Assembly (NCBI GenBank): GCA_025934895.1
Contig: JAICWH010000028.1
Coordinates: 1 to 34,516 of the forward strand
Direction: 5' to 3'
DNA from: Nocardioidaceae bacterium
GTDB lineage: Bacteria > Actinomycetota > Actinomycetes > Propionibacteriales > Nocardioidaceae
DNA: 34,516 nucleotides
The number at the start of each line of letters is the position of its first letter. The first letter of the stretch is position 1. A model generated the notes under the pieces. The model had not been told where the DNA came from. It saw nothing but the letters and a program-made list of their open reading frames with translations, and searched no databases. Of the stretch, positions 4,882 through 34,516 are shown one piece after another. Both the position numbers and the translations under genes were made by a program.

Positions 4882-5562
4882 TCAGGTCAGGAAGGCGCAG
4901 AACTCGTTCCCGTCGGGGTCCGCCATCACGCTCCAGCGGATCTCGTTGTCCTGTGCTCGCAGCACGACGGCTCCGGCATCGACGACGGCATCCAGGTCGG
5001 TGGTCCTGACGTCGAGGTGCACGCGGTTCTTCACGGTCTTGGGCTCGGGCACCGGCGCGAACACGAGCGAGTCGAACGGGGCCCCGGCGATGTCGGCGAC
5101 GGACGCGAAGCCGCGGCCACTGTCGACGGCCTGGGCGCCCAGCACGTCGGCCCACCAGGTGGCGATGCGGAGCGCGTGCCGGGGGGAGTCGCCGGTGTCG
5201 ACGCCGATCTCGTAGAGCCGTCGGCTGATCTCCCCGTCCCGCACGAACGCACAGAACTCGCCGCCTTCGGGGTCCGCCATCAGGGTCCAGCGGAACGAGT
5301 CCGCGTCCAGGACGGTGGCCCCGAGCCGCTCGAGCTCCTCGACGGAGCCGGTGTTCACGTCGAGGTGCATGCGGTGCTTGGCAGTCTTGGGCTCCGGCAC
5401 CTGGTTGACCCAGATCGTGTGCTCGCTGGTCGGTCCGGTGAGGTGCGCGCCGCCGTCGTCGTGCCTGTGGGGCTCGAGGCCCAGGGCGGCGGCCCAGAAC
5501 GTCCCCAGCGCGCCGGCGTCGACGGCGTCGATGCAGAGGTCCTTGTAGGTCACCAGCGCCAT
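4882..5562 (-). CDS. VOC/glyoxalase superfamily protein, two tandem domains
   Basis: MALVTYKDLCIDAVDAGALGTFWAAALG...; repeated VPEPKT.K.RxHLDV and MADPxGxEFCAF in both halves. Confidence 0.87.
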   Translation of the reverse strand: MALVTYKDLCIDAVDAGALGTFWAAALGLEPHRHDDGGAHLTGPTSEHTIWVNQVPEPKTAKHRMHLDVNTGSVEELERLGATVLDADSFRWTLMADPEGGEFCAFVRDGEISRRLYEIGVDTGDSPRHALRIATWWADVLGAQAVDSGRGFASVADIAGAPFDSLVFAPVPEPKTVKNRVHLDVRTTDLDAVVDAGAVVLRAQDNEIRWSVMADPDGNEFCAFLT

Positions 5563-5669
5563 GCATGTCACCCTAGGCCGCCCCTCCCGACCCGGCGCAT
5601 CCGCAGGCGTCCAGGGGCGGCGGGCCGCAGGGTGCGACGCCTCGCCGGGCGTGCGGCAGACTTCCGTCC

Positions 5670-6758
5670 ATGAGCCGTGTCGTCTACCTGCACGTCGGGT
5701 CGCCGAAGACCGGCACGACCTACCTGCAGGACCGGCTCGCACTCAACAAGGCCTCGCTGAGCCACCGCCGGGTGCACTACCCACTCTCGCTGCACGCCAG
5801 CCAGTTCCGGCCCGCCCTTGACCTCCTGCAGATGCCCTGGGGTGGGCTGCAGCTGGACGTCGATGGGGAGTGGAACGCGCTGACCGCCCGGGTACGCCGG
5901 CTGAGCGGCACCGTCATCATCTCGCACGAGATCCTCGCGGCCGCCAAGCCGGCCCAGGTGCGCCGCGCGATGGCCGGACTGGCAGGGAGCGAGGTGCACC
6001 TCGTGCTCTCCGCCCGCGACCTGGCCCGGCAGATCCCCGCGGAGTGGCAGGAGGGCGTCAAGCACCAGCGCAAGGTGAGCTACGCCGGGTTCCTCCGGCA
6101 GGTGCAGACGTCCAGGCGAGACCGGCCGAGCCTGTGGTTCTGGCGGGTGCAGAGCCTTCCGGACGTGCTCGGTCGGTGGTCGCGCGGGCTGCCGCCGGAG
6201 CGCGTGCACCTGGTGACGGTCCCCCAGGACGGCGCTCCTCGCAACCAGCTGTGGGAGCGCTACTGCCGGGCCTTCGGCATCGACCCCGCCTGGGCCCCCC
6301 GGGAGTCCGTGCGTGACAACGTCTCGATCGGGGCGGCGGAGACCTTTCTCCTGCGGAGGCTCAACCGGCGGCTGCGCCAGGCGGGCCTGTCCTCGGAGGA
6401 GTACCGCAGGCTGATCCGTGAGGTGGTGGTCCACCAGACGATGGCGAAGCGACCGCACATGACCCGGGTGACCCTGCCTCCGGCTGCGTTCCCGTGGGCC
6501 GCCGAGGTGGCCGAGGAGTGGGTCCGGTGGGTCCGGGGCTCGGGGATCGACGTGATCGGCGACGTCGAGGACCTCCGTCCGGTGCCGGTGCCGGACCAGC
6601 GCTGGGTGAACCCGGACCGTCCGCGGCGCCCCGAGATGGTCGACGCGGCCGTCGACGCACTGGTGGCGCTGGCGCTGGAGGCCGCCAAGCGCCCGGACCC
6701 CAACGAGCTGCTGACTGCCAAGCTCACCCGGGCAGCCCGCCGGCTGCGGCTCCGGTGA
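5670..6758 (+). CDS. Sulfotransferase-like protein (paralogue 1)
   Basis: N-terminal PAPS-binding P-loop HVGSPKTGTTYLQ; LVLSARDLARQIPAEWQE; VHLVTVPQDG. Confidence 0.82.
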   Translation: MSRVVYLHVGSPKTGTTYLQDRLALNKASLSHRRVHYPLSLHASQFRPALDLLQMPWGGLQLDVDGEWNALTARVRRLSGTVIISHEILAAAKPAQVRRAMAGLAGSEVHLVLSARDLARQIPAEWQEGVKHQRKVSYAGFLRQVQTSRRDRPSLWFWRVQSLPDVLGRWSRGLPPERVHLVTVPQDGAPRNQLWERYCRAFGIDPAWAPRESVRDNVSIGAAETFLLRRLNRRLRQAGLSSEEYRRLIREVVVHQTMAKRPHMTRVTLPPAAFPWAAEVAEEWVRWVRGSGIDVIGDVEDLRPVPVPDQRWVNPDRPRRPEMVDAAVDALVALALEAAKRPDPNELLTAKLTRAARRLRLR

Positions 6759-6780
6759 CCCGTGCCGGGGCGAGGCCGCC

Positions 6781-6828
6781 CAGTGGGTGACCCAGTGGGT
6801 GACCCGGTGGGTGACCGGGTGGGTGACC
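6781..6828. repeat. 12-bp tandem repeat, 4 copies (nnGTGGGTGACC)
   Basis: cagtgggtgacc cagtgggtgacc cggtgggtgacc gggtgggtgacc read directly. Confidence 0.9.
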
Positions 6829-6843
6829 GGTGGGAGGTCGGCC

Positions 6844-8121
6844 GTGAGTGAGCCCGGGCCCTACGAGCGGTCGGTGTGGTCCTGGCAGCGGCACCTGGCC
6901 GCCGGCGGGAGCACCTGCTGGCGGGACTGGGTCGCTCGAGGCGACGTCGCCGCCGCAGCGCCGGTGCCGGCAGGTTGGTCGCCGCCGGGTGCGGCCCAGC
7001 TCGAGGTCCTGCGCCGGGTGGCCGTCCGCGGGGAGCTGGCCGGTGCCGCCCTGGGCGTCTTCGCGGACCTGGTGACCCGTCGCTCCGGACCCGGACGAGG
7101 ACTCGCACAGCAACCGTTGCGCTGGCCGGACGCCGATGCTGCGGAGACCGCTGGTGCCGCAGGACGCCGGTTCGGGGCCCCGCCGGTCGACCCCTCCGAG
7201 GTGCCCGCCGAGGAGCTGGTGCGGGTCGGGACCGGGGCGCTCACGGAGCTGCTCCTCGCCCGGACCGCGGAGCACAGCGAGCCCCGGCGCACCCCCCGGC
7301 GGCGCTCGGGCCGGCTGAGGAGGATCCACCGGTCCCGCAGGACGACCCCCTTCGCGCTGGCCGGCGCGCCGGTCACCACGTCCGTCGTACGACGGGCGCT
7401 CGAGGCCGCGGGTCACGCGGAGGGCGCGAGGCCCCGGCTGGCGCTGCTGCTCGCCGAGCCGTTCGACCTGGCCCTCGCCCAGTCCTGGTCGGCCCGGGTC
7501 CAACGGGGTGCCCCGGTGCGCTGGCACGGCTTCGTGGCCCGATGGTCCGGGCGCCGGAGGCTGCCGCCCTCCATGGACCTGCCGGCACTCGCCCGACGGT
7601 GGGCCGACCGGGTGGGTGCGGACAACGTGCACCTCGTCGTGGCGCCGGCCGGCTCCGATGCCGCGATCCGGACGGCCGTCACTCTCCTCGGCGCCGACAC
7701 CAGCGGGCGGCGGCACGGGCCGGGACCGGGCGGTGCACGGGACCTGAGCCCGGCGGCCGTCGACGTCGGGCGACGGGTCAACGCCGTGCTCGGGGTCCGG
7801 GTCGGCGAAGAGCGGCACGCTGCCGTGCTGGGTCGGCTGGTCCCCCTGCTGGAGCAGTCCGGCCCTGGGTCGGCGACGACCGGCCCGGCTCTGACCGTCC
7901 CCCTGTCCGCTCGGGACTGGGCCTTCGGTCGGGCGGCGCAGATCGCCGACGAGCTGAGCGCCGGCGGCTACCCTGTGCACGGATCGCCGGCCGGGGTGCT
8001 TCCCCGGCTCGAGGGCCTGGCGAGCCACCCTCGACGCGAGGACGCTCTGGAGGTCCTCCTCATGGCGTGTGCGCGCCTGGTCCGGCGCGAGGACGGAGTC
8101 GAAGGAACAGTGAGGCGGTGA
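6844..8121 (+). CDS. Uncharacterised protein; divergent P-loop-less paralogue of the flanking sulfotransferase-like proteins
   Basis: C-terminal two thirds aligns by eye with neighbours (RWADRVGADNVHLVVAP; VGRRVNAVLG...ARDWAFGRAAQIADELSAGGYPVHG). No GxPKTGT motif. GTG start at 6844. Confidence 0.75.
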   Translation: MSEPGPYERSVWSWQRHLAAGGSTCWRDWVARGDVAAAAPVPAGWSPPGAAQLEVLRRVAVRGELAGAALGVFADLVTRRSGPGRGLAQQPLRWPDADAAETAGAAGRRFGAPPVDPSEVPAEELVRVGTGALTELLLARTAEHSEPRRTPRRRSGRLRRIHRSRRTTPFALAGAPVTTSVVRRALEAAGHAEGARPRLALLLAEPFDLALAQSWSARVQRGAPVRWHGFVARWSGRRRLPPSMDLPALARRWADRVGADNVHLVVAPAGSDAAIRTAVTLLGADTSGRRHGPGPGGARDLSPAAVDVGRRVNAVLGVRVGEERHAAVLGRLVPLLEQSGPGSATTGPALTVPLSARDWAFGRAAQIADELSAGGYPVHGSPAGVLPRLEGLASHPRREDALEVLLMACARLVRREDGVEGTVRR

Positions 8122-9353
8122 CCGGACCGACCGTGCCGCAGCCGGCCGTCCCCCGCCGGGTCCTGGTCCACGTCGGTGCCCCCAAGACCGGGACGTCCTT
8201 CGTGCAGGACGTGCTGTGGCTGAACCGCGGGTCTCTGGCCGGACAGGGCATCCTCTACCCCGCCGAGCGGTTCGACGAGCACTTCCTGGCCGCCCTCGAC
8301 CTGCTGGAGCTGCCCTGGGGCGGCCTGGAGAGGCAGGCGGTGGGTGCCTGGGACCGCCTCGCGGAGCGGGTCCGGGGCTGGCCGGGCACCTCCATCGTGT
8401 CCCACGAGATCCTCGCCACCGCGACCCGGCAGCAGGTACGACGGGCGATCGACTCGTTCGGTGACGTCGAGGTGCACGTCGTGCTGTCCGCGCGGGACCT
8501 GGTCCGGCAGATCCCCGCGGAGTGGCAGGAGAACATCAAGCACCGCAGGACGCTGGGCTACCGCGAGTTCCTGGACCGGATCACCGACCCGCGGCGGTCC
8601 GGTGAGCTCGCGTCGTGGTTCTGGGGGGTGCAGGAGGTGCCCGACATCCTCGACAGATGGGGGAGCACGCTGCCCCGGGAGCGGGTGCACCTGGTCACGG
8701 TCCCCAAGCCGGGGCAGCCGCGCACCCTGCTGTGGGAGCGGTTCTCCTCGGTGCTCGGCCTGGACGCGGCGGCCCTGGAGCCGGAGACCAACCGGTCCAA
8801 CGCCTCCCTGGGTGTCCCGGAGACGGTGCTGGTGCGCCGCATCAACCAGCAGGTCAACAACGGCGTGCTGCGCAACGAGGACTACCGCCTGCTGGTCCGT
8901 GAGCTGCTGGCGCACCGGACTCTGTCGCTGCGCACCGGCTCGGCGCGGCTCGGCCTGCCTCCCGACGTACGCGACTGGGCCCTCGAGCTGTCCGAGGAGT
9001 GGATCTCGGTGCTCGCCGAGCGAGGGTACGACGTTCGCGGCAGCCTCGACGAGCTCCGTCCCGACCTCGTGCCCACGGAGTTCACCGACCCGGACCGTCC
9101 CGAGGAGCAGGCGGTCACCGATGCCGCCGTCACGGCGGTCGTGACCCTGCTGGACGAGGTGGCCCGGCTGATGGAGACCGAGCGGACGCTGCGGGAGGAG
9201 CTCGAGTCGGCCTACCAGGAGCTGGAACGCTCGCGCTCGCTGTGGTTCCGCGCGAAACGGCGGCTCGTGCGACAGGCCGAGGTGAGCCGGACCGCTGCGC
9301 TGGGGCTGGCGGCCTACCGCAGGGTGCGCGGACGCAGCTCACGGTCGGCGTAG
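8118..9353 (+). CDS. Sulfotransferase-like protein (paralogue 2) with C-terminal coiled-coil-like extension
   Basis: VHVGAPKTGTSFVQDVLWLN; VVLSARDLVRQIPAEWQENIKHRR; GTG start overlaps the previous stop (gtga). Confidence 0.83.
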   Translation: MTGPTVPQPAVPRRVLVHVGAPKTGTSFVQDVLWLNRGSLAGQGILYPAERFDEHFLAALDLLELPWGGLERQAVGAWDRLAERVRGWPGTSIVSHEILATATRQQVRRAIDSFGDVEVHVVLSARDLVRQIPAEWQENIKHRRTLGYREFLDRITDPRRSGELASWFWGVQEVPDILDRWGSTLPRERVHLVTVPKPGQPRTLLWERFSSVLGLDAAALEPETNRSNASLGVPETVLVRRINQQVNNGVLRNEDYRLLVRELLAHRTLSLRTGSARLGLPPDVRDWALELSEEWISVLAERGYDVRGSLDELRPDLVPTEFTDPDRPEEQAVTDAAVTAVVTLLDEVARLMETERTLREELESAYQELERSRSLWFRAKRRLVRQAEVSRTAALGLAAYRRVRGRSSRSA

Positions 9354-12109: not shown

Positions 12110-12188
12110 CGGGCCTGGCAGCCGGGCCTGGCAGCCGGGCCTGGCTCGGGGGCTGGCTCGGGGGCTGGCTCGGGGGCTGGCTCCGGGT
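12110..12188. repeat. Compound tandem repeat: 13-bp unit (cgggcctggcagc) then 12-bp unit (ctggctcggggg) x4
   Basis: Read directly at 12110-12188. Confidence 0.9.
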
Positions 12189-17597: not shown

Positions 17598-17660
17598 AGA
17601 GGGAAGCGTAGTGGCCGATCTGGTGACCCGGCCCGTCCGCTGCGCCGAGGGTGCCGACCC

Positions 17661-17925
17661 GGCGTGTGTGGCGGGGTGCGGGGTGTCGAGTCGGCGCGTG
17701 TGGCGGGGTGGGCGTGTCGAGTCGGCGTGTGTGGCGGGGTGCGGGGTGTTGAGTCGGCGCGTGTGGCGGGTGGCAGGTGTCGAGTCGGCCGGGGGTCGGC
17801 CCTGCCGATGGGCCGACTCGGCGGGGTCGGGCCCTGCGGATAGGCCGACTCGGCAGGTTCGGGCCCTGCGGATGGGCCGACTCGGCAGGTTCGGACCCTG
17901 CGGATGAGCCGACTCGGCAGGGTGG
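17661..17925. repeat. Composite ~32-bp minisatellite: type-1 units (ggcgtgtgtggcggggtgcggggtgtcgagtc) then type-2 units (cgactcggcaggttcgggccctgcggatgggc)
   Basis: Unit boundaries read directly: 17661, 17693, 17724, 17756 (32/31/32/31 bp), a hybrid unit to 17813, then 17814, 17846, 17878, 17910 (32 bp each). Confidence 0.9.
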
Positions 17926-17969
17926 GCGTGTGCCCGCCCGCCCCCGAGCCCGCAGGCCCATGACCCTGG

Positions 17970-34434: not shown

Positions 34435-34457
34435 GGCACCCAGCCGCAGCGGTCCCC

Positions 34458-34516
34458 CGGTGCCTGACCCGGTGCCTGTCCCGGTGCCTGTCCCGGTGCC
34501 TGTCCCGGTGCCTGTC
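34458..34516. repeat. 12-bp tandem repeat (ccggtgcctgtc), at least 5 copies, truncated by the window end
   Basis: Direct reading of 34458-34516; the first copy has gac instead of gtc. Confidence 0.92.

Follow-up and report, generated by a model that had tools for sequence, protein, structure and literature searches.

Catalytically dead proteins that serve as partners of active enzymes have been studied in detail among kinases and polyamine enzymes. The trypanosomatid prozymes (AdoMetDC prozyme and DHSp) are dead paralogues that form heteromers with the active enzyme and activate it 1000-3000-fold (PMC3663545). Inactive sulfotransferase paralogues in metazoa are mentioned in the same paper, whose reference list includes Pils and Schultz 2004. 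The full-text literature searched yielded no account of a bacterial pseudo-sulfotransferase in an operon with active sulfotransferases, many subscription papers being outside its scope. Here we describe a candidate of this kind, encoded in a 34,516-nucleotide stretch of a Nocardioidaceae genome (contig JAICWH010000028.1, hereafter the window). The protein, MID, lies between two sulfotransferase-like proteins, STA and STB, in a set of three codirectional genes spanning positions 5670-9353 (Table 1). Like the metazoan proteins it appears to be a sulfotransferase fold devoid of catalytic residues, although those are eukaryotic; like the prozymes it is a presumably dead paralogue kept beside an active enzyme. 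Pseudoenzyme partners are thus known in general, but one with a novel N-terminal module such as that of MID appears to be undescribed. Our main reading, to which we give a probability of roughly two in three, is that MID is a pseudo-sulfotransferase and a dispensable, non-catalytic partner of STB, the two probably acting on a cell-envelope glycan.

Table 1. Features of the STA-MID-STB locus, in window coordinates
Feature	Position	Strand	Description	Basis
STA	5670..6758	+	sulfotransferase-like, 362 aa, P-loop HVGSPKTGT	
STA P-loop	5697..5717	+	GSPKTGT, predicted PAPS 5'-phosphosulfate loop	read from translation
Tandem repeat	6779..6834	+	12-bp repeat in the STA-MID gap, motif CCCGGTGGGTGA, 4.8 copies	
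MID	6844..8121	+	putative pseudo-sulfotransferase, 425 aa, GTG start	homology, orthologue alignment, AlphaFold model
MID N-terminal module	6844..7347	+	residues 1-168, predicted all-helical	orthologue alignment, model
MID core	7348..8118	+	residues 169-425, sulfotransferase-like, equivalent to STB from strand 2 on	
MID/STB overlap	8118..8121	+	GTGA, MID stop and STB start	
STB	8118..9353	+	sulfotransferase-like, 411 aa, C-terminal helical extension and basic tail	
STB P-loop	8175..8195	+	GAPKTGT	

None of the three proteins scored above the Pfam or NCBIfam cut-offs. STA and STB share 46% identity and carry the P-loops and the further common motifs that an initial annotation of this DNA had pointed out. 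A weak match to Sulfotransfer_3 was seen in 8 of 31 STA/STB relatives (best 0.011) and one to Sulfotransfer_4 in a single relative. In STB the P-loop, Arg126 and a sulfotransferase-like fold are all present. The AlphaFold model of STB (pLDDT 92.9) resembles the tyrosylprotein and heparan sulfate 3-O-sulfotransferases in fold: Foldseek retrieved TPST1 (probability 0.99) and 3-OST-3 (probability 1.00), at E values of only about 2e-3 and with other P-loop kinases alongside. From the weak Pfam signal, the motif and these Foldseek values we infer that STA and STB are sulfotransferases, a good inference short of proof. An APS kinase is encoded in the genome of the window, so PAPS can be made.

MID was described in the initial annotation as a P-loop-less paralogue of its neighbours, with degenerate counterparts of their motifs in the same order, and the open reading frame and the order of these motifs are as given there. 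By BLASTP, MID and STB are 24% identical over 227 columns (E 3e-6, as a single comparison); MID against STA gives an E of 0.003. A profile comparison built from 38 MID orthologues and 31 STA/STB proteins is much stronger: hhalign aligns MID 180-414 with STB 105-346 over 217 columns at a probability of 99.4 and E 3e-21, and the cores alone reach 99.5 and 2.6e-22. The similarity is far above chance and, judged from these alignments, MID has diverged from the flanking proteins but is homologous to them. An unrelated fold, or the lack of any common core, had been considered as the outcome that would undo the proposal; both are ruled out by the profile match and by the AlphaFold model of MID (pLDDT 88.4, pTM 0.89). 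In a tree of the cores, the MIDs are united in a single clade (100/100) that has a long branch and falls outside every sampled sulfotransferase; STA and STB are sister clades. The word paralogue therefore holds in a deep sense, and not in the sense of a recent copy of STA or STB.

When the two models are compared by the order of their secondary structure elements, MID is colinear with STB from strand 2 to the C-terminus. The MID elements (strand 170-174, helix 176-188, strand 199-204, helices 207-220, 227-237 and 246-257, strand 262-266, then the C-terminal helices) follow, one by one, STB 91-96, 104-113, 118-125, 128-141, 148-156, 174-182, 190-194 and onward. The MID model has no equivalent of STB strand 14-19 (strand 1) or of the P-loop. 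A Foldseek search of the PDB with this model returned no sulfotransferase and no solved structure resembling it. The GxPKTGT loop, already noted as missing from MID, is absent from all 38 MID orthologues in the alignment, which offer no equivalent of the P-loop lysine. The position of STB Arg126, which we take from sulfotransferases generally to bind the 3'-phosphate of PAPS, is arginine in 30/30 sulfotransferases versus 4/38 MIDs in the merged alignment. Several other, non-catalytic core positions are kept in the MIDs (STB/MID numbering): Trp136/215 and Arg240/310 in 38/38, Trp287/359 and Gly308/380 in 36/38; STB Val306 is retained in nearly all of them. Compared with P-loop PAPS-dependent sulfotransferases (Sulfotransfer_3/Sulfotransfer_4), MID would thus share, via STB, the fold core from strand 2; it has neither strand 1 nor the P-loop, nor the arginine for the 3'-phosphate, and possesses an extra N-terminal module. 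The loss of the PAPS-binding positions gives good support to the earlier proposal of a pseudoenzyme, and MID is best regarded as a pseudo-sulfotransferase that is predicted to be non-catalytic.

Within the family to which the window belongs, 244 of 346 genomes contained matches to MID, mostly near full length, some short ones being other sulfotransferases. Beyond the family, single-sequence searches of the order and class gave only sulfotransferase-like partial matches. One might suppose that MID is a decaying gene copy that survives by accident between its two sulfotransferase neighbours, given that its rate of evolution is about double that of STB and that it has been reduced to a 219-aa remnant in one lineage (L088) and to a split frame in another (L087). 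The median dN/dS is nevertheless 0.22 for MID, and none of the 40 close pairs exceeds 0.34 (STB, 0.11 in the 40 pairs; STA, 0.15 in 24 pairs), the frame is intact in many genomes at 33-59% identity, and ten residues are invariant among the orthologues. MID is under purifying selection, and we reject the pseudogene explanation on the dN/dS data as highly improbable.

The combinations in which the three genes occur provide clues regarding the partner of MID. About 76 loci were inspected. They were drawn from search hits and from genomes that have STB and gave no match to MID, so that the counts describe combinations and not frequencies. About 49 loci have the whole trio, which bears out its conservation; at least 12 have MID-STB without STA and 9 have STA-STB without MID. 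MID without STB was not seen in these loci, except at a contig end. In the initial annotation MID was proposed as a partner or regulator of both flanking proteins; the data are in favor of STB as the genomic partner, and not of STA, since MID persists without it. On the STB tree the absence of MID requires four changes, at least three of them forced by supported branches, while STA-STB stayed. MID is therefore not obligatory and can be dispensed with by the STA-STB pair. This one-sided dependence, of MID on STB and not of STB on MID, is what one would expect if MID were an accessory subunit. The operon is conserved with 4-base overlaps; one of these, GTGA, joins the end of MID to the beginning of STB, recurs in most relatives and makes translational coupling likely.

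These observations are consistent with the following mechanism. The sulfotransferase core of MID no longer has strand 1, the P-loop or the arginine for the 3'-phosphate, and a new helical module has taken the place of the N-terminal part, as both the sequence and the confident model show. MID would be made in translational coupling with STB and may associate with it through the common fold. As an accessory subunit it could stabilize STB, tune it allosterically or present the acceptor glycan. Binding of PAPS and transfer of the sulfate would fall to STB, and to STA in loci that have it. As in the prozymes, MID is a paralogue of its partner devoid of the catalytic residues and retained under selection with STB. 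Unlike the prozymes, it was lost repeatedly while the active enzymes stayed, is far more diverged and has a new N-terminus. The natural losses, STA-STB without MID and MID-STB without STA, together with the independent parallels described below, are ready comparisons for the contribution of a dead subunit.

Changes in STB that accompany the loss of MID were considered as a guide to an interface. Only Arg272, otherwise conserved in STB, stood out; it is changed in 5/8 MID-less loci, from two separate losses, which is too little to claim an interface. Some MID-less STB lineages (L079-L084) sit on long branches (0.9 for L084 and 0.65 for L079), and the constraint on STB was possibly relaxed after MID loss. 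Most loci are flanked by an HMG-CoA-lyase-like gene on one side and by EcsC-like and aat-like genes on the other. In the window, VOC/glyoxalase-like and MFS genes (4882-5571) precede the trio; in most relatives acyl-CoA carboxylase and HMG-CoA-lyase-like genes are found there.

Two further cases resemble the pairing of MID with STB. First, a genome of another family of the class (G790) encodes a 734-aa fusion (L126:8038-10242, minus strand) of a sulfotransferase domain with P-loop GAPKSGS and an intact RD to a second domain in which the loop reads GVPGAGG and RD has become PP. As in MID-STB, a P-loop-less sulfotransferase domain is paired with an intact one. The fusion differs from MID in being a single polypeptide, in its independent origin (its halves form a group of their own, 92/95, separate from MID), in a remnant of strand 1 (HVGVPGAGG) and in having no MID N-terminal module. 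The fusion gene sits in a cluster with further sulfotransferase genes. Second, in Actinomadura harenae (L038:5530-8024) an intact sulfotransferase gene overlaps a second one with the degenerate P-loop GAPLLGA. From these two, the only cases seen in a limited sample, the pairing of an intact with a P-loop-less sulfotransferase looks recurrent.

The N-terminal module of MID is conserved among its orthologues in the motifs W..HLR.GGTTPW, LPGAxQLELLRRLN, PGRG and PPVDP, and Gly84-Arg85-Gly86, Arg57 and Arg127 are invariant in 38/38. About 170 N-terminal residues had been noted as having no counterpart in the neighbours. An hhalign comparison of residues 1-168 with the sulfotransferase N-terminus scored 11.2, within the range of 30 column-shuffled controls (7-17). 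No relatives of the module were found in Pfam, NCBIfam or PDB, sporadic single-member matches being treated as chance, and it appears to be a new protein module with no known relatives. A MAFFT merge sets PGRG over PKTG; we do not claim that PGRG is a remodelled P-loop, because the N-terminal hhalign is no better than shuffled and the model has a helix, not a strand, before PGRG.

The invariant residues could indicate a ligand or structural site, and the MID model resembles no known structure. Hence MID may have been repurposed, as an enzyme or as a binder of some ligand, with PGRG, Arg57 and Arg127 forming a new active or donor site; it would then work in the same pathway and make no contact with STB. 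We consider this unlikely: invariant residues can be structural, the strongest linkage of MID is to STB and to no fixed pathway gene, and the independently evolved P-loop-less domains fused or adjacent to active sulfotransferases favor partnership. If MID is a partner of STB, one may go further and suppose that Actinobacteria repeatedly evolved pseudo-sulfotransferase subunits and that the wholly new N-terminus of MID, having taken over from its PAPS pocket, switches or directs its partner, a prozyme-like regulation of bacterial glycan sulfation. This broader view is tentative, and we would sooner bet against it than for it. MID further points toward a route of sulfation, so far unrecognised, in a large family of Actinobacteria, and toward a protein module with no known relatives.

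Genes linked to the relatives may provide some clues to the acceptor. The A. harenae locus adjoins a UDP-galactopyranose mutase gene, a galactofuranosyltransferase-2-like gene and an ABC exporter (a galactofuranan-type cluster). The displaced STB-MID pair of L087 adjoins a galactofuranosyltransferase-2-like gene and an exporter, a sulfotransferase pair lies near a mutase gene in L130, and in L085 and L086 a glycosyltransferase is encoded between STA and STB. The genome of the window has a mutase gene and adjoining genes reading as galactofuranosyltransferase and exporter, unlinked to the trio. A glycan of the cell envelope is the probable acceptor; judged from the linked genes in relatives, one of galactofuranan type is plausible but weakly indicated. 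The same glycosyltransferase, galactofuranosyltransferase and exporter genes could also suggest that MID serves in glycan binding or targeting, its retained acceptor side keeping the polysaccharide in place for the two sulfotransferases with no stable heteromer being formed, and the conserved part of MID is indeed the C-terminal, acceptor-side core. That face is assigned from sulfotransferases in general, however, no carbohydrate-binding signature was found in MID, and the tight overlap of the two genes suggests that MID and STB are made in stoichiometric amounts. We regard such a role as improbable, somewhat more so than a repurposed MID. A role in phage defence was not indicated either, as PADLOC gave no match.

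Finally, the 5'-end of the MID gene deserves comment. An alternative in-frame GTG at 6787 would read through the 12-bp tandem repeat and extend the protein by VTQWVTRWVTGWVTGG. The repeat is missing in relatives, and the MID orthologues begin at the position equivalent to 6844. In most of the closest relatives the STA/MID boundary is a 4-base gene overlap and not a 12-bp repeat. No Rfam match to a structured RNA was found in the operon. Arrays of 12 bp similar to that in the STA-MID gap are also present at 12137-12187 and 34456-34516 of the window, and two adjoining arrays with a 32-bp period lie at 17649-17927, between two minus-strand genes.
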